Positions 45,910-58,671 of a stretch of DNA of 64,000 nucleotides are shown here, piece by piece. Source of the stretch: Chitinophagaceae bacterium (GTDB taxonomy: Bacteria > Bacteroidota > Bacteroidia > Chitinophagales > Chitinophagaceae); the NCBI GenBank assembly GCA_947372105.1, contig CANBSH010000002.1:41713-105712 (forward strand), read 5' to 3'. The translations under genes were made by a program, and so were the position numbers. The notes under the pieces are model-generated. The model was given only the letters and a program-made list of their open reading frames with translations. It was not told the DNA's origin and did no database searches. The first letter of the stretch is position 1. Every line of letters starts with the position of its first letter.

Positions 45910-46500
45910 TTATTTCCATCTAAAAGTGTTTACTAATCGCTTCACATCTTCCAATAAAAATGCATTATAGGGTGCTAAGGAATCTGCATTAGGAGTGGTA
46001 TTAAAATACAAAGCCCCTCTAAAAAAATGATGCGTGGAATCGGTTAAAAAAAACTGGTAGGCAGTAGCTACGTCTCCGCCAATATGAAAGAACACTCCGT
46101 GCACACCTAAGGGAGTTGTAAAAACCGAATCCTCAATACTACTTGCTTTATTGGCATGATTGGTCGCAAATTTATAAGCATCATTCAACAAAGTATCAAA
46201 TTGATTTTTTTGAATCGTATTGTAACTGATATATAAGGTGCTATTAAAAATAGGAAAATCTAAATTCATCCAATCCGCTGATTTTTTTTCTACCCCAAAA
46301 TAATTCACCTCATGATTCACACTGGCATAAGTGGGTATGTCAAAAGAATAAGGAGTTGTAGGTTCCGAAAAAGATTGATATTTTTTTTCAGGAAAATAAA
46401 CCATAGGATAGGCTTTTTCCTTAGGTATATAGGGCGAATTACATGCTATCAAAAAAGACGTCATTCCTAACAAAACAAATAAGACAAAATAATTACGCAT
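45910..46500 (-). CDS. gldD: Gliding motility lipoprotein GldD
   Basis: MRNYFVLFVLLGMTSFLIACN lipobox; YMVYFPEKKYQSF-like core; adjacent to gldE. Confidence 0.88.
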   Translation of the reverse strand: MRNYFVLFVLLGMTSFLIACNSPYIPKEKAYPMVYFPEKKYQSFSEPTTPYSFDIPTYASVNHEVNYFGVEKKSADWMNLDFPIFNSTLYISYNTIQKNQFDTLLNDAYKFATNHANKASSIEDSVFTTPLGVHGVFFHIGGDVATAYQFFLTDSTHHFFRGALYFNTTPNADSLAPYNAFLLEDVKRLVNTFRWK

Positions 46501-47848
46501 GATCAATAATACTTGGAATAGTGGGAGTAATTATCATCTGAATTTTATGAATTCTATTTTTTTGTATTTCAAGCACAGTAAAACTATAGGATTGAAATTT
46601 AACTACCTGTTGAAGGGAGGGGAATTCTCCCGCTAATTCTAAAAACAAACCTGCCATAGTATCGCTCTCCCCTTTTACAGTATCAAAAGTGGTCGCTGGC
46701 AAATCAATATAATTACACAAATCAATGATAGTGGTTTTTCCTTCTACCATATAATGGTAAGCATCAATTTTTTTAATTGTAGATTCTTCTTCGTCAAATT
46801 CATCTTTAATATCTCCTACAATTTCCTCTAAAATATCTTCTAATGTTATAATACCGCTGGTGCCCCCAAATTCATCCACCACAACTGCAAAGTGAATTCT
46901 CTTTAATTGAAATTCTTTTAATAAATCCTCGATCATTTTTTGTTCGTGCACAAAATAGGCAGGCCTGATTAAGCTTAGCCATTGAAAATTGGGGAGCTCC
47001 GTCAAATGAGGAATGATATCCTTGGTATGAATCATCCCCACCACGGTATCTAAATCATCTTTGTACACAGGAAATCGGCTATAACTGAATTCTTTAATAC
47101 TATTGAGAACGCCAGCAAAATCAAGCGTTTCATTGATGGCATGTACATCTAATCGGGTCTTCATGATTTGTTTCACCGAAATATTTCCAAACTTAACTAT
47201 GCCTTTTAAAATTTTCTTTTCATTATCCTTATTTGGCTCATTACTCGTTAATTCTATAGCATGATCCAACTCCTCCATACTATAAGAACTACCTGCATTT
47301 TTTTGAGCTAATTTTTTTTCAATCACATTGGTGTATTTCACCATTAAGCCACTCATATTGGAAAATAAAAAATAAACCGTTTGAATGATAAGTCCAAAAT
47401 CCTGAGCAAAACGAATATTGTTTTGAGTGGCCATGACCTTGGGCAAAATTTCACCAAAGAATAATAGTAATAAAGTAACCACCACCACTTTTACTAAAAA
47501 TTCAAGTCCAGGGTATTGCGCTGCATCAAAAACAAATAAATGATCAATTAAAATATTCGCAATTAAAATAATACAGATATTGATAAAGCTATTGGCAATT
47601 AACATGGAAGTCAACAGCTTTTTTGGATTTTCTAACAATTGTACGATACGTTGTAAAGGAACATGTCGTTTTGTTTTAAGCACTTGAATATCCTTATAAG
47701 ACAAAGAAAAAAATGCAACTTCGGAACCTGCTATGACAAAAGATAAAAAAAGTAACCCCACCATCAAAAAAATGAGGCTGGCGTCTTGCTGCAACTTGAA
47801 GAGTATAGAAACGGACAAAAAAGTAAAATCACCCGAATGCGCTTCCAA
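46493..47848 (-). CDS. gldE: Gliding motility-associated protein GldE (CNNM/CBS domain)
   Basis: DUF21-like TM region, two CBS domains, CorC-type C-terminus (VVDEFGGTSGIITLEDILEEIVGDI); overlaps gldD. Confidence 0.87.
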   Translation of the reverse strand: MEAHSGDFTFLSVSILFKLQQDASLIFLMVGLLFLSFVIAGSEVAFFSLSYKDIQVLKTKRHVPLQRIVQLLENPKKLLTSMLIANSFINICIILIANILIDHLFVFDAAQYPGLEFLVKVVVVTLLLLFFGEILPKVMATQNNIRFAQDFGLIIQTVYFLFSNMSGLMVKYTNVIEKKLAQKNAGSSYSMEELDHAIELTSNEPNKDNEKKILKGIVKFGNISVKQIMKTRLDVHAINETLDFAGVLNSIKEFSYSRFPVYKDDLDTVVGMIHTKDIIPHLTELPNFQWLSLIRPAYFVHEQKMIEDLLKEFQLKRIHFAVVVDEFGGTSGIITLEDILEEIVGDIKDEFDEEESTIKKIDAYHYMVEGKTTIIDLCNYIDLPATTFDTVKGESDTMAGLFLELAGEFPSLQQVVKFQSYSFTVLEIQKNRIHKIQMIITPTIPSIIDHA

Positions 47849-47921: not shown

Positions 47922-49019
47922 CTACTTTGACCACTCTTGAAATTGAGTTTTTAAAAAATCATTAATTAATTTAGGGAAAGCATATTTTTTTAAAGAAGTC
48001 GCACTCACCCAAAGGTCATTATCGTACAATTTTGGCTTTTGCTTTAGTTTTACCCATATAAAGCGAGCCTGTAACAACTGATGGGTAAGGGTTTGACTAA
48101 AAATAGGCGAAACATTTTTTCGATTTAATACAACGCCTCCCGATTCAAAATTTTGATTTTTAACCCCTAATTGATCCTGCAAAATATGAGTCAAATAGCT
48201 TACTGTAAGTGGACGCATGTTTGTGTTTTCTACTAAATAAAATTGAAATAGATTTTGCCAAATATCACCTTCTCCTCTTTTTTGCAACCACCAAGTATTT
48301 TTATATTGGAAGCAGAAAAAATCAAACTGTCTTTTTTTCCTTTGTATACTTTTTATTTTAATGGGCAACTGATTCACTAAGCCTTGTTGATAAGCAACAC
48401 ATTTAGGTTGAAGATTACAATGCGCACAATTGGGCGCCATTGGCTTACATATAGTAGCTCCAAAATCCATGAGGGCTTGATTGTAAATGCCGGCTTGTCG
48501 GGCTGCTAAATTTTTTTGTGCTAGTTCATTAAAAATCAATAGGCCTTCTTTGCTATCAGTGGGTGTATGAATGCCATAAAATCGGGACAACACTCTAAAA
48601 ACATTGCCATCAACCACAGCATACGGTAAATTATAGGCAAAGGAAGCAATGGCAGCGGCAGTATAAGGCCCCACCCCTTTTAAAGAAAGTAATTCTTCAT
48701 AAGTATTCGGAAAGACTCCTTTATATTTTTCGACAATTTCCTTTGCCGTAAATAATAAATTTTTACATCGATTATAATATCCTAAGCCTTCCCATAATTT
48801 AAAAACCTTTTCTTCTTTAGCTTTTGCTAAATCTTGGACTGTTGGGAAGGCTTTTGTAAATTTTTCGTAATAACTCCAACCCTGTTCTACCCTAGTTTGT
48901 TGTAAAATGATCTCACTCAACCATATTTTATAGGGGTCTTTTTCTCCCTTCCAAGGCATGGGTCGATTATTTTCGATATCATTCCAATAAAGGAGCTTCT
49001 GGGTAAAGAAAGTGGCCAT
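47922..49019 (-). CDS. mutY: A/G-specific adenine glycosylase
   Basis: EIILQQTRVEQGWSYYEKF; LKGVGPYTAAAIASFAYNLPYAVVDGNVFRVLSR; CX6CX2CX5C cluster. Confidence 0.95.
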   Translation of the reverse strand: MATFFTQKLLYWNDIENNRPMPWKGEKDPYKIWLSEIILQQTRVEQGWSYYEKFTKAFPTVQDLAKAKEEKVFKLWEGLGYYNRCKNLLFTAKEIVEKYKGVFPNTYEELLSLKGVGPYTAAAIASFAYNLPYAVVDGNVFRVLSRFYGIHTPTDSKEGLLIFNELAQKNLAARQAGIYNQALMDFGATICKPMAPNCAHCNLQPKCVAYQQGLVNQLPIKIKSIQRKKRQFDFFCFQYKNTWWLQKRGEGDIWQNLFQFYLVENTNMRPLTVSYLTHILQDQLGVKNQNFESGGVVLNRKNVSPIFSQTLTHQLLQARFIWVKLKQKPKLYDNDLWVSATSLKKYAFPKLINDFLKTQFQEWSK

Positions 49020-49226: not shown

Positions 49227-49511
49227 ATGAGAAAATCTGATCTCATTAATCAAATTTCTGAAAAAACCGGAATACCTAAAGTAGATGTTCTTGTTACTTT
49301 AGAAACCATGTTTAAGGAAGTAAAAGAAAGCTTGTCAAACGGCCAAAACATCTACATACGTGGATTTGGCAGCTTTATTACTAAAAAAAGGGCGGCTAAA
49401 ATTGGTCGTAATATTAAAAAGAATATTGCGGTTGAGATCCCTGAACATTTTATTCCTGCTTTTAAACCAGCAAAAGAATTTGTAAACGATGTAAAAAGCA
49501 AGCGTAAGTAA
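49227..49511 (+). CDS. HU/IHF-family DNA-binding protein
   Basis: Start trimmed to MRKSDLINQISEKTGIPKVDV; GQNIYIRGFGSFITKKRAAKIGRNIKKN. Confidence 0.93.
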   Translation: MRKSDLINQISEKTGIPKVDVLVTLETMFKEVKESLSNGQNIYIRGFGSFITKKRAAKIGRNIKKNIAVEIPEHFIPAFKPAKEFVNDVKSKRK

Positions 49512-49537: not shown

Positions 49538-50383
49538 TTGAAGAAGCCTCAAATTATTGTTGTTGCCCTATCTATTGCCTTATTTTGTACACTCTATTTT
49601 TGGGTACCTAGGCATAAAACCATCGAATCTGCAGCCTCCATTACGACTGATAATCAAGAATTTACGTCCACTAGTGTCCTAGAAACTGCCAAATTAGGAC
49701 TCAGTCCAGAACAAAAATTAACTTTACTAAGCATTGAAAATCAATTCAATAGCTCAAAAACTCCAAAGGATAGTATCGCCGTAATTGCTCAACTAAGCCG
49801 CTTTTGGGCGGACTCGGCTCAAAAGCTAGGTCCTTATTTATATTACACATACAGCGCTGCTTTGTTGGAAAATTCTGAAAAAAGCCTCACTTTTGCAGCC
49901 CAACAGTTGGTTGATAACTTAACCAACCAGGAAGCACCTCCAGCCTTTCTTAAATGGATCGCCGGAAATGCAAAAGTTCTTTTAGATAAAGCATTGATTA
50001 TGAATCCTAATAATGATTCAGCTAAAATCAATTTAGGTGCCTGTTATTTGTTTGGAAATATTTCGGACAATCCTATGCAAGGCATTTTAAAGATTAAAGA
50101 AATAGTGGACAAAAATCCACACAATATTTACGGTCAAATGATTTTAGCATTGGGAGGTAAAAAGTCAGGACAAAATCAAAAAGCAATTGAACGCTTTTTA
50201 ATCATTCTGAAAGACCAACCTAATAATATGGAAGCCCTCATAAATGTGGCTGAATGTTATGAACTTACGAATCAAAAGGATCTTGCTTTGGAATATTATG
50301 AAAAAGCTAAAAAAGCAAACCAAATGAATATTCCAGGGCTGAATGGTGCGATTGACAAAAGAATACAACAATTAAAGAAATAA
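49538..50383 (+). CDS. TPR protein, membrane-anchored
   Basis: 281 aa; N-terminal TM; C-terminal TPR repeats (PNNMEALINVAECYELTNQKDLALEYYEKAKKANQMN). Confidence 0.8.
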   Translation: MKKPQIIVVALSIALFCTLYFWVPRHKTIESAASITTDNQEFTSTSVLETAKLGLSPEQKLTLLSIENQFNSSKTPKDSIAVIAQLSRFWADSAQKLGPYLYYTYSAALLENSEKSLTFAAQQLVDNLTNQEAPPAFLKWIAGNAKVLLDKALIMNPNNDSAKINLGACYLFGNISDNPMQGILKIKEIVDKNPHNIYGQMILALGGKKSGQNQKAIERFLIILKDQPNNMEALINVAECYELTNQKDLALEYYEKAKKANQMNIPGLNGAIDKRIQQLKK

Positions 50384-50410: not shown

Positions 50411-50506
50411 ATGCCTTGTGGTAAAAAGAGAAAGCGTCATAAAATTGCGACGCACAAAAGAAAGAAGCGTTTAAGAAAAAATAGACATAAGAAGAAGAAT
50501 AAATAA
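50411..50506 (+). CDS. 31-aa basic AURKAIP1/COX24-like microprotein (putative ribosome-associated)
   Basis: MPCGKKRKRHKIATHKRKKRLRKNRHKKKNK*, absent from the >=60 aa ORF track; located between TPR gene and rng. Confidence 0.8.
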   Translation: MPCGKKRKRHKIATHKRKKRLRKNRHKKKNK

Positions 50507-50518
50507 TTCCTTTTCTAT

Positions 50519-50557
50519 GCAAGCGTATTTTAATTAAAATACGCTTGCATTTTTTTC
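50519..50557 (+). terminator. Intrinsic terminator after the microprotein gene
   Basis: GCAAGCGTATTTTAATTAAAATACGCTTGC followed by ATTTTTTTC. Confidence 0.8.
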
Positions 50558-50665: not shown

Positions 50666-52246
50666 ATGCGTGCTTTAAAAAAGTTGCTATCAGTGAACAA
50701 AGATTTAATAATTAATAGTTCTTCCGATGGGGTAGAGATTGCCTTGTTAGAAGAAAAAAAGTTGGTTGAAATACACAACGAAAAAATGGACGCCCGTTGG
50801 TCTGTAGGGGATTTGTATTTAGGAAAGGTTAAAAAAATAATACCAGGCCTGAATGCCGCTTTTGTGGATGTAGGCTTTGAGAAAGATGCTTTTTTGCATT
50901 ACACCGACTTAAGTCCTTATGCCAAATCCATCATTAAGTTCACGCAATTAGCAATGAACGACAATGATAATAGTTTTGATTTTGCGCATTTCCAAACTGC
51001 CCCAGAAATAGTTAAAACAGGCAAAATAAGCGAAGTATTAAATGGCAAGCCCAATGTGTTGGTTCAAATATTAAAAGAGCCTATTGCGGCCAAAGGACCC
51101 CGTTTAAGTTGTGAAATTTCATTAGCAGGACGATTCGTAGTATTAACTCCCTTCAATGAAATAGTGGCAGTGAGTAAAAAAATTCATTCAGGAGACGAAC
51201 GTAGAAGATTACAAAAAATAATTGAAGGAGTGAGGCCCAAAAATTTTGGGGTCATTGTACGTACTGCAGCCGAAGGAAAAAGCACCGCCGAACTTCATGA
51301 GGATTTATTAACGCTTGAAGCCAACTGGAAAAATATACAATCCAATTTAAAAGGCGCGGTTCCTCCTGCTCGTATTATGAATGAGGAGAGTAAAACGACA
51401 AGTATCTTAAGAGACTTATTAAATGAAGATTTTAATAAGATCGTAGTGAATGATAAAAAAATATACGACCTCACTTTAAGTTATTTGCAACGTATAGCTC
51501 CAGGCAAAGCAAACATATTAAGTTTATACAATGGAGATCAAGCAATTTTTGATCAATATGGTATTACTAAACAAGTAAAATCTTCTTTTGGTAAAACAGT
51601 CAACTTACCTAGTGGCGCTTATTTGATTATTGAACATACCGAAGCATTACATGTCATAGATGTGAACTCAGGTTTCAAGAGCGTTTCCAATAACCAAGAG
51701 GAAAATGCGATGCAAACCAATATGGAAGCTGCCGAGGAAATCGCAAGACAATTAAGATTAAGAGATATAGGGGGGATTATTGTCATTGACTTTATTGATA
51801 TGAAATTGCCCGAAAACAGACGCAAAGTTCAAGAAGCTTTAGAAGGCTTTATGAAAACCGACCGTGCAAGACATTCGGTACTTCCTATTTCCAAGTTTGG
51901 ATTATTACAAGCAACTCGTCAAAGAATACGCCCAGAAGTAAATATTAATACCTCCGAAGACTGTCCTGCATGTACAGGAACGGGGAAAATCACATCCACT
52001 TTACTCTTAGAGGATGAAATGGAGAAGAAATTGGCTTATTTGGCTACACACGGGCATAAAAATCTGCAGATAGTAGTTCATCCCATCATTCATTCGCACC
52101 TCACTAAGGGCATCTTTAATAGCATTATAAAGACTTGGAGAAAGAGATATAAAATCAAACTTAAATCACAGGCATCCAATATTAGCCATTTAGTAGAATA
52201 TCGATTCTTGGATGAGCATTTAGAAGAAATTAAGATTTACGCGTAG
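50666..52246 (+). CDS. rng: Ribonuclease E/G family protein
   Basis: S1-like LGKVKKIIPGLNAAFVDVGFEKDAFLH; HVIDVNSGF; IVIDFIDM; CPACTGTGKI. Confidence 0.95.
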   Translation: MRALKKLLSVNKDLIINSSSDGVEIALLEEKKLVEIHNEKMDARWSVGDLYLGKVKKIIPGLNAAFVDVGFEKDAFLHYTDLSPYAKSIIKFTQLAMNDNDNSFDFAHFQTAPEIVKTGKISEVLNGKPNVLVQILKEPIAAKGPRLSCEISLAGRFVVLTPFNEIVAVSKKIHSGDERRRLQKIIEGVRPKNFGVIVRTAAEGKSTAELHEDLLTLEANWKNIQSNLKGAVPPARIMNEESKTTSILRDLLNEDFNKIVVNDKKIYDLTLSYLQRIAPGKANILSLYNGDQAIFDQYGITKQVKSSFGKTVNLPSGAYLIIEHTEALHVIDVNSGFKSVSNNQEENAMQTNMEAAEEIARQLRLRDIGGIIVIDFIDMKLPENRRKVQEALEGFMKTDRARHSVLPISKFGLLQATRQRIRPEVNINTSEDCPACTGTGKITSTLLLEDEMEKKLAYLATHGHKNLQIVVHPIIHSHLTKGIFNSIIKTWRKRYKIKLKSQASNISHLVEYRFLDEHLEEIKIYA

Positions 52247-52386
52247 TTTTTATATTAGTTGGAATCATTAATATAAGAACAGGCAAGCAATGTATGGTTC
52301 TAATGAATATCGCAAGTAGACTCCTATTGATATAGCTTATTCCTTATACAAGAGGATCTATTAAAACATTCCTGAAAAAAGAGCAT

Positions 52387-52426
52387 AAAAAAAAGACCCA
52401 CCGAAAATTCGGTGGGTCTTTTTTTA
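52387..52426. terminator. Bidirectional intrinsic terminator
   Basis: AAAAAGACCCACCGAAAATTCGGTGGGTCTTTTTTT between convergent genes. Confidence 0.85.
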
Positions 52427-52456: not shown

Positions 52457-53356
52457 CTATTGCTTTTGAAGAATCAAAGAATAGAAACCATAACTAGAAG
52501 TTCCATAGAAATGTTCAATCTTTAATCCGATATATCCAGTACAAGAGAAGATATAACCAGCATTTGCTGCAGCAGCAGAATATACAGCTCCAGTTGGAGA
52601 ATAGCTACCGTAATCAACACGTGGAATTGAAGCAGCTCCTGTGTTTGGATCTACGTTTACTACCAATTTGTTTTTTACATAACCGCCACCTGGGTATACA
52701 CCACTTAAATCAACTTGGTTAGCACCAGGACCATCACCTACAGGTACGATTGCACCTAAAGCCCAGTCTTCCCAACCATCAGCGATTACTTTGTAGTTAC
52801 CTTTCATACCACCTGTGAATGGACAAACCACATAAGCAGTCCATCTAAAACAAGCGTTATAACCAGTAGCATTTTCTAATGCACCTAAAGTGTTAGATAA
52901 GTCATAAGTTTTACCATCTTCAGTAATAACTTGGTTGTAGAAAGTGTAAAACTGACCTGGCGCAAATAAAGATGCAGCAGGAGTTCCAATAGCAGTCGCT
53001 ACTTCAGCTCCAGTTGCAGCTAATTCGGTAGTACCGTTTACGTCTACTGTTTTAACTAATTTCCATGCAGCTGGATCAGCATTTGCATTTTTTACTACAA
53101 ACAATTTTACTTGTTTAATTTTAACCCCGTTATTATAAGGGTCTACCATTACAGATACTTTAGAAGTACTGATTGCGGCATAGTTAAAGTTTACATTCAC
53201 CGTTTTATTAAGGGTGATATAAGCTCCTTTTCCAAAGAAGTTGATATCAACGAATGGTTTTTCTAAGGCTAATCCTTCTTTTTGACAAGAAGTACCCACA
53301 ACCATAAAGGCGATAGCAACTAATAGGATGTTTAATATTTTTTTCATTGTTGTCAA
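52457..53356 (-). CDS. Hypothetical lipoprotein downstream of SusD-like gene
   Basis: 299 aa; lipobox VVGTSCQKEG; operon with SusC/SusD. Confidence 0.75.
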   Translation of the reverse strand: MTTMKKILNILLVAIAFMVVGTSCQKEGLALEKPFVDINFFGKGAYITLNKTVNVNFNYAAISTSKVSVMVDPYNNGVKIKQVKLFVVKNANADPAAWKLVKTVDVNGTTELAATGAEVATAIGTPAASLFAPGQFYTFYNQVITEDGKTYDLSNTLGALENATGYNACFRWTAYVVCPFTGGMKGNYKVIADGWEDWALGAIVPVGDGPGANQVDLSGVYPGGGYVKNKLVVNVDPNTGAASIPRVDYGSYSPTGAVYSAAAANAGYIFSCTGYIGLKIEHFYGTSSYGFYSLILQKQ

Positions 53357-53361
53357 ATTTA

Positions 53362-55086
53362 TTATTTGATGAAATTATCAGGGTTATTATCCCAGAATAC
53401 TTTGTTTACCGCAGTTCCTAAATTTCTTTGTACCGGTGCATTCAAGTTTCTGTTCATGAATACAGATGGGTAGAAGAAAGAACGGATAAAGAATCCTGGA
53501 TTAGCAGCGTACTTATTGCCTTGTAAATTTCTAGGCGTACCATTTAAACGGTAGTTGTTATATGCTTCCCAACCATTACCCCAAGTTGCTAAGTAAAATT
53601 CCTTACCTACGATATCCAATTTAGCAGCATCAGTAGCAGCAGCATCATATTGTGCTAAAACAATGCTAATGTAGTTTGCAATAGTAGCAGAAGTAGCAGC
53701 ATAAGTTGCAGAAGGAGTAATACCCACTTTAGCAGCAAAGCCAGTTACTTTAGCCATATTATTAGTAAGTGCAGTGTTTAAGCTAGCTCTTGCAGCAGCT
53801 GCACCACCAGTAATAACACCTGTTAAAGCAGCTTCCGCTAATTTAAAGTGTGTAAATTCAGAGTTCCAGATAGGTAAGATACCAGCACCTTTACCACCCA
53901 TTTCCAAACTTACTTTTACAGCAGCATCATCATCAAATGCGCCACCTGCTGGGTAAATACCCCATGTAGTTCTGTAAGAACCATCTGGAGGAGTACCAGA
54001 GTTGTCACCGTGATCACGACCCCAATAACCAGCACCTACATAACAGAAAGGCTCGCCTGCTTTATAATGAGCAGGAGGCGCTTCAATGCTACAAGATAAG
54101 GTTACAGAGTTAACGTTCGCTGCAGATGTATTTTGTCTGTAGAAATAGTAACGTTGTCTTGGATCCAAAGTAGTCTTTGTTGTTTTACTAGTACCACTAA
54201 TATCACAACCACCAGAACCATTTGAAGCACAAGCTGTACCAATTTTTTCAGAAGCAATAGCCCACATAAAGTAGTCAGCCATGTATTCACCTACACTACC
54301 TGATGAGTTATAGTTTCCACCATAATCAGGATGACGGCTATCTGGAGTAGTACGGTTAGTACCATATTGGAAATTAAAGTCGTTTGTTGCAGTTAAAATT
54401 AAATCACCTGCAGTTACTAAAGCTTGAATTTTAGCAGCAGCTGTTGCATCCACTTTACGAGTTTGCATCAACATTTTAAATTTCATTGTTTTAGCAGCCG
54501 TGATCCATTTTGTTTTGTTACCACCATAAAACAAGTCAGCACCTGGTGCAGCACTTGATTTAGAGAAGTCTGTAATCGCATCATCATATAAAGCTAATGC
54601 AGCAGCATATACAGAAGCAGCTGGATCCACTTTAGGTGAAGTTTGTGCTAAACCTGTATTCGCTTCAGTGTAAGGAACATCACCAAAAGCATCTACTAAA
54701 ACTCCTAAAGCGTATGCTTTCATGAATTTAGCCATACCAGAGGCGATGAATCTGTTTTGCTTTTGCGCCAAAGGAATTAAGGCGTTTGCATTTTTAATGA
54801 TTGAAGTATAGGCTGTGTTCCAATAACCATCAAATGAATTCGGAGAATATCCGTTTTGATAGATTGGTCCAAACCATGCTTGTTGTCTAGTTAATTGGCC
54901 CCCGTCGTTTGACGCACCATCAAAGAAACCAGCAAAAGATAATTGAACTGTGTTTAATAACAAGTCAACATCCGCTGTTCCTAATGAAGGAGCATTTGGG
55001 TTGTCCAAAAGACTATCTAATTGTTTGCTACATGCAACCGCAGTTGTAAGTAAGGCAGTGACGATTATAATTTTTAAATATCTCAT
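53362..55086 (-). CDS. SusD/RagB-family outer-membrane lipoprotein (SusD-like_2 type)
   Basis: Lipobox TTAVACSKQL; NPNAPS; KFMKAYALGVLVDAFGDVPYTEA. Confidence 0.9.
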   Translation of the reverse strand: MRYLKIIIVTALLTTAVACSKQLDSLLDNPNAPSLGTADVDLLLNTVQLSFAGFFDGASNDGGQLTRQQAWFGPIYQNGYSPNSFDGYWNTAYTSIIKNANALIPLAQKQNRFIASGMAKFMKAYALGVLVDAFGDVPYTEANTGLAQTSPKVDPAASVYAAALALYDDAITDFSKSSAAPGADLFYGGNKTKWITAAKTMKFKMLMQTRKVDATAAAKIQALVTAGDLILTATNDFNFQYGTNRTTPDSRHPDYGGNYNSSGSVGEYMADYFMWAIASEKIGTACASNGSGGCDISGTSKTTKTTLDPRQRYYFYRQNTSAANVNSVTLSCSIEAPPAHYKAGEPFCYVGAGYWGRDHGDNSGTPPDGSYRTTWGIYPAGGAFDDDAAVKVSLEMGGKGAGILPIWNSEFTHFKLAEAALTGVITGGAAAARASLNTALTNNMAKVTGFAAKVGITPSATYAATSATIANYISIVLAQYDAAATDAAKLDIVGKEFYLATWGNGWEAYNNYRLNGTPRNLQGNKYAANPGFFIRSFFYPSVFMNRNLNAPVQRNLGTAVNKVFWDNNPDNFIK

Positions 55087-55114
55087 ATAGATTTCTTTTT
55101 TACTTTAGTTAGGA

Positions 55115-58100
55115 TTAAAAGGTTACTCTTACACTTACACCCATTCTACGTGCAGAAGGACCAGTGATACCCTCGAAACCTTTACCACTACTTACACCCA
55201 ATCCATTTGTTTCTGGATCAAAATGCATGTGTTTAGGGAAGTTAGGAGCAAAGTACCATAAGTTGCTTCCGTTGGCAGAGATAGACAAGCTACCAAATGG
55301 AGTTTTTGATAAGTATTTTTCAGGTAATGAATAACTAAGAGAAACATCTCTTAATCTGATAACTGTTCCGTCAAACATACCAGATTGGTCTGGTCCAAAC
55401 ATGTTATTAAAGAAGGCTTGAGTAGCACTAATTTGAATATTGTTTGGTTTGCCATTTTCCAATACCCCTGGTAAAATATAAGGAGCAGCACGATCAAATT
55501 CTGTATCCGCAGTTACCCCTCTCGCTAACAATGATCTTACTGTTGAAGAGTAAATATCACCACCGCAAGTGTAGTCAAATTGGAAACGGAAATTGAATTG
55601 CTTATAGCTTAAGCTAGAAATACCTGTTAATTTATATTTAGCGTTCGGATCACCAATCACACCAATACTATTTGATGCCATATAGTCACCACCAGATCCT
55701 ACTAATAAATTTCCTTTTGCATCTTTTTGGAAATAATAACCTTTCATGATACCTAAAGGTTGACCGTTAATAGCGAAGTTACCTAAGGTAGTATAACCTG
55801 CATAAACGATTTCTTTTAAGTCAGTAGGAATATTAGATACCATAGACTCATTTAAAGTCCAAACACCTGTTAAATCCCAAGACCAATCTTTTCCTTTGAT
55901 GATTTTGTAACCTACTTGAGCTTCAATACCCTTGTTAGATACTTGACCAGCATTGATTTGGATGGCAGTATAACCAGTTGATGGATCTAAATCTCTGTTC
56001 AAGATTTGATCTTTTGCAACTCTATTATATAATGTCAAATCCAAACTTAAACGAGATTGGAAGAATTTACCTTCAATACCTGCTTCTAATTCTTGTAATA
56101 ACTCAGGTTTTAAATCTGCGTTAGGCAAGTAGTTAGGAATAGCATTGGTATTTAATACAGAACCAGCACTTGTTACAAAGTTTCTTGTAGAAATTGCTAA
56201 AGCTGATCTTGTAGAGTAAGCTCCAGGGAAGTTAGCTGCAGTAGAATAACCAACACGTAATTTTAAGTAGTTGATATTCTTTTTATTTCTTAACCAAGAC
56301 AACGCTTCTGTAGGAATAAATGAAGCACTTACATTAGGATAGAAGATGCTACGGTTAGCGGCTTCTAAAGTAGAAGTCCAGCTATTACGTCCACCTACTA
56401 CTAAATAAGCAAAACGCTTATAATCTAAAGTAGCAGTTGCAAAAGCAGCTAATGATTGAGAATTAATTTTATAATCCAAATCACCACCACCTTCATTATT
56501 GATATCATGCGTTGTAAAGTTAGAATGGTCTAATAAACCAAATACTAATTGTTCTTTACTAGTTGCACCCATTTGATTGTAGCCTAATTCACGATCGTTC
56601 ACACCCGCTAATACGTCAAAGCTATAATCAGAGTTGATATCTTTTTTATAAGTAGCAGTTAATGTGTGGTCAATGATGTTGTTGAAACCAACACTTGTTC
56701 TCATAAAACCAGTAGGGAAATAAGTACCCCCTTTGTTTTGAGCATATAATTGGAAGTTTGAATAATCATCATAACCAAAACGGTAAGCGATTTTTAAATC
56801 CTTAGCAGCATCCCAAGCCATCAAGATATTACCAAAGTTTCTTGAAACCTTATCACGGTTAAAAGAGTTTTTAGCAGTCCATCTTGGGTTTTGGATATCG
56901 TTACCACTTCTGTAGTATACATGAGAATGGTCAATTGGGTTTTCCCACTCTAATCCCATTAAATCTACCGCAGTTGGAGTGTACATTACGTCACCAAAAA
57001 TAGATGGTGCAGATGCAGTACTACCAAATGAAGGAGAAGTTGGAGGAGACTTAACGTCTGTGTTAACGTGGTTGAAAGTACCGCTAATAGTAATTTTGTT
57101 ACTTAATTTAGCTGTACCACCCATACCAATATTACCTTTCATTGTTCCATTACCTTCTACAAAACCTTGGTCATCAGTATAACCGTAGTTAATATTATAG
57201 TTTACATTGCCAGAAGAACCAGCAAAGTTTACTGAAGTATTTTTTGTTACACCATCTTGGAAGAAGTTTTTAACAGAGTTATAAAACTTTAATGGGTAGC
57301 TGTTGTTTCCAACATATTGAGGGAATGCAGCGTTCAAAGCAGAACGGCTATATGGATGCGCTACCAAAGTTGGAGGATTGGTAAATTTACCACCCCAGTT
57401 ACTGAAGAAAGCTAAACCAATACTCAAATCAAAACCACCACCATAAGTAGTGTTGTAATCTGGTAGGTTAGCCACTTGGTTTACAAAATAAGATTGAGAA
57501 ACAGTTACTTCGTTTTTCTTTCTTGTTTTTTGAGTAGATCCGTTTTTAGTAGTTACCAAGATAACACCATTACGTCCTAACTCACCATATAATGTAGTCG
57601 CACTCAAACCTTTTAATACGTCAATTGACTCCACGTTATTCGCGTCTAAGTCTAAGAAACGGCTAGGAGAGTTGTTACCATATACGAAAGAAGTTTGTTG
57701 GTTATTACCACCGTCAAAAGGCACACCATCCACAACCCATAATGGAGAAGTTCCACCAGAGATAGTAGAAATAGCACGAATTACAACGTTAGTACCAGAA
57801 CCAGATAAACCACTTGTATTTAAAATGTTAACACCAGGAGCTTTACCAGTTAAGATACGAGCAATATCCACCTCAGGTTTTAATTCAAGGTCTTTTTTAC
57901 CAATAGAAGAAACCGCGTATCCTAAGGCTTTCTTTTCCTTTTTGATACCCAAGGCAGTTACAACCACTTCACTTAAATCTTCTTTCAAAGCTTTTAAACT
58001 AAAGTTCGTAACAGCTTGTGCTGCTGCTTCTTTTCTTTCAAATCCTACACTAGACACTTGTAATACAGATCCTAGTTTTACACTAATTCTGTAAGTACCA

Positions 58101-58273
58101 CTTGCATCAGTGATTGCTCGGTTATTTGTTTTTGATTTCTCTGTTACGACCGCACCTTCAATGGGCGCATTTTTATCATCTGTTACTTTACCAGTCACAG
58201 TTGTGTTTTGCGCGATTGCCGCCGTGAAAGAGAAAAACGCAACAAACAAACTCAATAGTAGTTTTTTTCTCAT
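55115..58273 (-). CDS. SusC/RagA-family TonB-dependent receptor
   Basis: Start trimmed to MRKKLLLSLFVAFFSFTAAIAQ; CarboxypepD_reg-like domain; plug VVTALGIKKEKKALGYAV; C-terminal beta-barrel. Confidence 0.95.
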   Translation of the reverse strand: MRKKLLLSLFVAFFSFTAAIAQNTTVTGKVTDDKNAPIEGAVVTEKSKTNNRAITDASGTYRISVKLGSVLQVSSVGFERKEAAAQAVTNFSLKALKEDLSEVVVTALGIKKEKKALGYAVSSIGKKDLELKPEVDIARILTGKAPGVNILNTSGLSGSGTNVVIRAISTISGGTSPLWVVDGVPFDGGNNQQTSFVYGNNSPSRFLDLDANNVESIDVLKGLSATTLYGELGRNGVILVTTKNGSTQKTRKKNEVTVSQSYFVNQVANLPDYNTTYGGGFDLSIGLAFFSNWGGKFTNPPTLVAHPYSRSALNAAFPQYVGNNSYPLKFYNSVKNFFQDGVTKNTSVNFAGSSGNVNYNINYGYTDDQGFVEGNGTMKGNIGMGGTAKLSNKITISGTFNHVNTDVKSPPTSPSFGSTASAPSIFGDVMYTPTAVDLMGLEWENPIDHSHVYYRSGNDIQNPRWTAKNSFNRDKVSRNFGNILMAWDAAKDLKIAYRFGYDDYSNFQLYAQNKGGTYFPTGFMRTSVGFNNIIDHTLTATYKKDINSDYSFDVLAGVNDRELGYNQMGATSKEQLVFGLLDHSNFTTHDINNEGGGDLDYKINSQSLAAFATATLDYKRFAYLVVGGRNSWTSTLEAANRSIFYPNVSASFIPTEALSWLRNKKNINYLKLRVGYSTAANFPGAYSTRSALAISTRNFVTSAGSVLNTNAIPNYLPNADLKPELLQELEAGIEGKFFQSRLSLDLTLYNRVAKDQILNRDLDPSTGYTAIQINAGQVSNKGIEAQVGYKIIKGKDWSWDLTGVWTLNESMVSNIPTDLKEIVYAGYTTLGNFAINGQPLGIMKGYYFQKDAKGNLLVGSGGDYMASNSIGVIGDPNAKYKLTGISSLSYKQFNFRFQFDYTCGGDIYSSTVRSLLARGVTADTEFDRAAPYILPGVLENGKPNNIQISATQAFFNNMFGPDQSGMFDGTVIRLRDVSLSYSLPEKYLSKTPFGSLSISANGSNLWYFAPNFPKHMHFDPETNGLGVSSGKGFEGITGPSARRMGVSVRVTF

Positions 58274-58671
58274 GTTGTTGTCAAAATTTTTGTTAATAAA
58301 GCCCTCCATTATGGAGAACATGTTGTGCAATATAATATAAGTCGGAGTTTCTGCCAACGAAAATCATATCTTTTTTTAACAAATTTTAACAAAAAGGTGA
58401 CTAAATGTTAATATGGAGGGTGGTTTAGGGAGAAATCTTTAATTGTATTATGTTTTTATTACATTTATAAATAACACATTTAAAATTAATTAAAAGATCT
58501 TATTATTTAAAAAACTCATAGGAAAATTAAACTAATAAATGTCCGTTTTTGTTCGAAAAATTTCTTAAAAAAAGTTTAAGGAATTCGCCTTAATAAATGA
58601 ACATTTTGAGACAAAAAGGGCTTTTTACCCGTTTTGCGGGAAATACGCAATCTCAATTTAAAGGAAGCAAT

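Follow-up and report, generated by a model that had tools for sequence, protein, structure and literature searches.

A 31-residue basic protein encoded between HU-family and Rne/Rng-family genes is very probably the Bacteroidota ribosomal protein bS22

A reading frame of 31 codons on the forward strand of the window (the whole 64,000-nucleotide stretch of Chitinophagaceae DNA that was analyzed) almost certainly encodes the Bacteroidota form of bS22, a small-subunit ribosomal protein that likely forms a bent helix in a pocket of the 30S subunit and makes an inter-subunit contact. That Bacteroidota possess bS22 was already known from the cryo-EM structure of the Flavobacterium johnsoniae ribosome, and a Lyme-spirochaete ribosome solved by cryo-EM contains the protein too; in this sense the finding is mostly explained.

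Genomic context

The frame opens with an ATG at 50411, closes with a TAA stop that ends at 50506 and specifies the product MPCGKKRKRHKIATHKRKKRLRKNRHKKKNK. The preliminary description had called it an ultrabasic frame of 31 residues, and both coordinates and product were the same when re-read from the sequence. By count, 18 of the 31 residues are K or R and three more are H; a length of about 30 residues and a K/R content above one half are as expected for bS22. The genome from which the window derives contains a single match to the peptide (n = 1). The features of the locus are as follows.

47922..49019, minus strand: mutY (A/G-specific adenine glycosylase; above the TIGR01084 cut-off), divergent to the HU-family gene, in the same arrangement as in many relatives
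49227..49511, plus strand: HU/IHF-family DNA-binding protein (PF00216, E = 3e-25), conserved upstream neighbor by synteny
49538..50383, plus strand: TPR-repeat protein with a TTG start, fast-evolving and absent from the HU-bS22 interval in many lineages
50411..50506, plus strand: probable bS22 gene, small-subunit ribosomal protein of 31 aa (open reading frame, PDB matches 7JIL_5, 9I5V_10 and 8FMW_V, purifying selection, phylum-wide conservation)
50517..50550, plus strand: hairpin followed by a T run, resembling an intrinsic terminator (15 pairs, 5 of them G-C)
50666..52246, plus strand: Rne/Rng-family ribonuclease (TIGR00757, 449.5 bits; PF10150), conserved downstream neighbor

The bS22 frame starts 27 nt past the stop of the TPR gene (50383), and 159 nt separate its end from the ribonuclease gene. 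Farther out, gldD and gldE (gliding motility) are encoded on the minus strand at 45910-47848, downstream of mutY, and both score above NCBIfam cut-offs. On the other side, rng is separated from a convergent lipoprotein-like gene by a strong hairpin (AAAGACCCACCGAAAATTCGGTGGGTCTTTTTTT, 52383-52425) that by eye resembles a two-way terminator. The translations from 52457-58357 on the minus strand suggest, also by eye, a SusC/SusD-like pair followed by a putative lipoprotein.

Identification of the encoded protein

Searched as a single sequence against the PDB, the peptide matched ribosomal chains and none other. These are bS22 of the F. johnsoniae 70S ribosome (7JIL chain 5, E = 1.3e-9; the structure is named as the F. 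johnsoniae ribosome in PMC9976891, and its depositors use the names S22 and L38 for the chain), 9I5V_10 (E = 2.1e-9), a chain with nearly the sequence of the window peptide that is designated 'AURKAIP1/COX24 domain-containing protein', and Borrelia bS22 (8FMW_V, E = 2.1e-7). A 16-sequence profile recovered the same three chains over their full length (2.4e-15 to 2.6e-13). Two rows of the profile are practically identical to the 7JIL and 8FMW chains, and only 9I5V was new to it; thus, the single-sequence search is the independent test.

The F. johnsoniae protein, which belongs to the same length class and phylum, is identical to the window peptide at 25 of 29 aligned residues, the sole differences being C3S, I12V, L21A, K23A and a C-terminal NK tail. 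Borrelia burgdorferi bS22 (8FMW chain V, PMC10618245) aligns over 28 of 28 residues and has the THKRKK and NRHKK core in common with the window peptide. Across the aligned set, Borrelia included, 18 residues are invariant, and the matches extend position by position along the full length, including P2, G4, T14, H15 and H26. Low complexity in K, R and H inflates similarity in general, but these full-length positional matches argue otherwise here. By sequence, the peptide is orthologous, over its full length, to chains placed in the bacterial 30S subunit (7JIL_5, 8FMW_V). The earlier proposal of a small ribosomal-subunit protein is therefore borne out, at the level of bS22, by matches to solved ribosomes.

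Relation to COX24-type proteins

The preliminary description had also likened the peptide to AURKAIP1/COX24-domain proteins and suggested kinship with mitochondrial mS38 and mycobacterial bS22. The resemblance stands insofar as the near-identical 9I5V entry carries that name (this protein is annotated, unlike the Borrelia copy), but the family model does not match. Pfam COX24_C (PF08213, cut-off 23 bits) has no match at E<=10 to the window peptide and none anywhere in its genome, and it also misses the F. johnsoniae and Borrelia proteins. As a positive control, the same model scored 46.2 bits against M. smegmatis bS22, the query being an exact match to PDB chains. No Pfam or NCBIfam model matches the peptide, and an Rfam search of its surroundings found nothing. 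PDB searches with the single sequence and with the profile gave no match to mitochondrial mS38 or eL41.

The protein is of the bS22 kind, but its sequence does not show common descent with mS38 and COX24. Alignment of the Bacteroidota-type profile to mycobacterial bS22 with hhalign gave a probability of 6% over 7 columns, a comparison in which very short, biased sequences give little power. According to published structures, bS22 of Mycobacterium and Cutibacterium (5O61, 8CRX; COX24_C) is a like peptide in the same 30S pocket, yet no homology between its sequence and the Bacteroidota profile could be detected, and COX24_C matches the mycobacterial form but not that of Bacteroidota. Mitochondrial mS38 (AURKAIP1/COX24) and eukaryotic and archaeal eL41 sit at the corresponding position of the small subunit (PMC10618245, PMC7005279, PMC6582356); compared with bS22, mS38 is longer, and eL41 is shorter and unbent. 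We thus assign the peptide to bS22 on the ground that it is orthologous to chains located in ribosome structures; the sequence does not demonstrate a common COX24-type ancestor.

Predicted role in the ribosome

On binding 16S rRNA, the peptide most probably adopts the form of a bent alpha helix. The helix would fill the 30S pocket between h2, h27, h44 and h45 and would touch 23S rRNA (H67/H68) where the two subunits meet, and it may stabilize the decoding-site end of h44 and add an inter-subunit contact. Published structures of relatives point to the same pocket (16S h27/h44/h45) in the organism from which the window derives. Borrelia bS22, described as highly basic and unannotated, is located in a pocket of h2, h27, h44 and h45 and touches 23S H68; pocket and contact are common to the Borrelia, F. 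johnsoniae and Mycobacterium proteins, and the Borrelia form is nearer to that of F. johnsoniae than to that of Mycobacterium and analogous to mS38 and eL41 (PMC10618245). Cutibacterium acnes bS22, annotated as AURKAIP1/COX24, occupies the same site and contacts H67 (PMC10085706). It has been suggested that the site shared by mS38, eL41 and bS22 is linked to initiation that does not use Shine-Dalgarno pairing (PMC6582356, PMC7005279). GGAG-like leaders precede spirochaete bS22 genes; thus, such a link is not simple.

The ribosomal protein might also act in free form as an antimicrobial or as an inhibitor of translation; C. acnes bS22 was tested for this and is reported to inhibit growth and E. 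coli cell-free translation (PMC10085706). We consider this improbable, as such activity is common among synthetic basic peptides and 31 residues leave no room for a secretion signal.

Distribution and gene neighborhood

The expected conservation of the peptide across related genomes was found in nearly all of those sampled. Matches (E<=0.01) occur in 289 of 297 Bacteroidota genomes, all at least 90% complete, and in every near-complete relative (39/39). In Spirochaetota, 82 of 100 sampled genomes have a match. Three GC-rich, 3.6 Mb Bacteroidota genomes of one genus (G147, G195, G199) lack bS22 by sequence and also by profile at E<=10, as do three of one other genus (G227, G275, G287), even by profile at the same threshold; two further genomes without a match (G249, G296) are fragmented assemblies. 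In G227, G275 and G287 the HU gene is in place and no bS22 frame occurs in the approximately 700 bases examined, and congeners (G081, G151, G251) retain bS22. These absences resemble genuine losses, or else genes that moved elsewhere and diverged strongly. Since a few members of the phylum lack the gene, bS22 appears not to be indispensable everywhere. The idea that genomes without bS22 belong to salt-in halophiles was dropped, as a rough count of D+E minus K+R on sampled contigs did not separate keepers from losers within a genus and is unreliable for the GC-rich group.

HU lies upstream of bS22 across Bacteroidota and neighboring lineages, and rng usually lies downstream in Bacteroidota. In a set of 78 loci from relatives, which includes truncated loci and many loci of the same genus, HU occurs within 1.5 kb upstream in 65 and rng occurs downstream in 49. 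A second, independent set was derived with a pattern that favors Ser over Ala before THKRKK and so samples a subset of the family. Among the matches listed, loci with enough flank have HU upstream (72/78) and rng downstream (61/78), so that the synteny proposed in the preliminary description holds across much of Bacteroidota. HU also precedes bS22 in records titled Ignavibacteria, Neomarinimicrobiota and Calditrichaeota, where rng does not follow. In relatives of the window's organism, HU and bS22 are separated by the TPR gene, which was not found in this interval in many Flavobacteriaceae- and Bacteroidales-titled records. Spirochaete copies among the pattern matches listed adjoin neither HU nor rng; Borrelia-type genes differ from the window gene in this respect and start with GUG. 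A GUG start is present in all eight listed VPCG-type copies (from Spirochaetes- and Borreliella-titled records and others), and other Spirochaetota copies start with AUG or UUG.

The frequency of HU as upstream neighbor in both sets and the high K/R content would also suit a nucleic-acid-binding peptide that acts with HU on DNA, outside the ribosome, in which case the neighborhood would be functional. This nucleoid-associated role is very unlikely, because orthologs are part of the 30S subunit in solved structures (PDB; PMC10618245), spirochaete copies among the pattern matches listed have no HU neighbor, and HU persists in three genomes that lack the peptide. Returning to bS22, one tentative and rather doubtful account of its origin is that the Bacteroidota/Spirochaetota type (MP.GKKRKR.K..THKRKKR.R.NRHKK) arose as a separate family and reached by convergence the 30S pocket of actinobacterial and mitochondrial COX24-type bS22 and mS38, with an ancestral HU-bS22 pair in Bacteroidota and related phyla, and scattered losses.

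Purifying selection and transcription

An open reading frame of 31 codons is not proof of a gene by itself because the DNA is AT-rich. However, 31 loci of the same genus comprise 23 distinct DNA versions that encode one identical protein. All 26 variable columns are synonymous, and they fall on codon positions 1, 2 and 3 in the ratio 3/0/23, for which the neutral expectation gives a crude probability of ~3e-20 with columns treated as independent. Stops interrupt both other frames in 23/23 versions. Since the protein is conserved while the DNA varies, 50411-50506 is a genuine gene under purifying selection. Many random frames of 25-35 aa are listed nearby, but a chance frame in AT-rich intergenic DNA is refuted by the codon-position analysis (26/26 variable columns synonymous within the genus) and by conservation throughout the phylum and across phyla, and has a negligible probability.

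The strong terminator reported directly after the frame (at 50519-50557) was recovered with nearly the same limits. A scripted scan placed a hairpin 3' of the bS22 stop in 17 of the 31 same-genus loci, some of them probably by chance. About a dozen of the 17 agree in offset and in a stem of the ACAAGC/GCTTGT type, with inner pairs changed on both arms. By these comparisons, the terminator appears common to close relatives rather than general. The bS22 gene is probably co-transcribed with the HU and TPR genes, and the transcript probably ends at the hairpin, before rng.

Implications

A reading frame below the length cut-off is thus confirmed computationally as a ribosomal protein conserved in nearly all sampled Bacteroidota and most sampled Spirochaetota, even though it is matched by no model of Pfam or NCBIfam. 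Beyond the known structure, the analysis adds the HU/rng neighborhood, the presence in Spirochaetota and the absence downstream of HU in three genomes. The order HU, optional TPR gene, bS22, hairpin and rng provides a simple guide for annotation of bS22, and congeners with and without the gene offer a natural comparison for its function.
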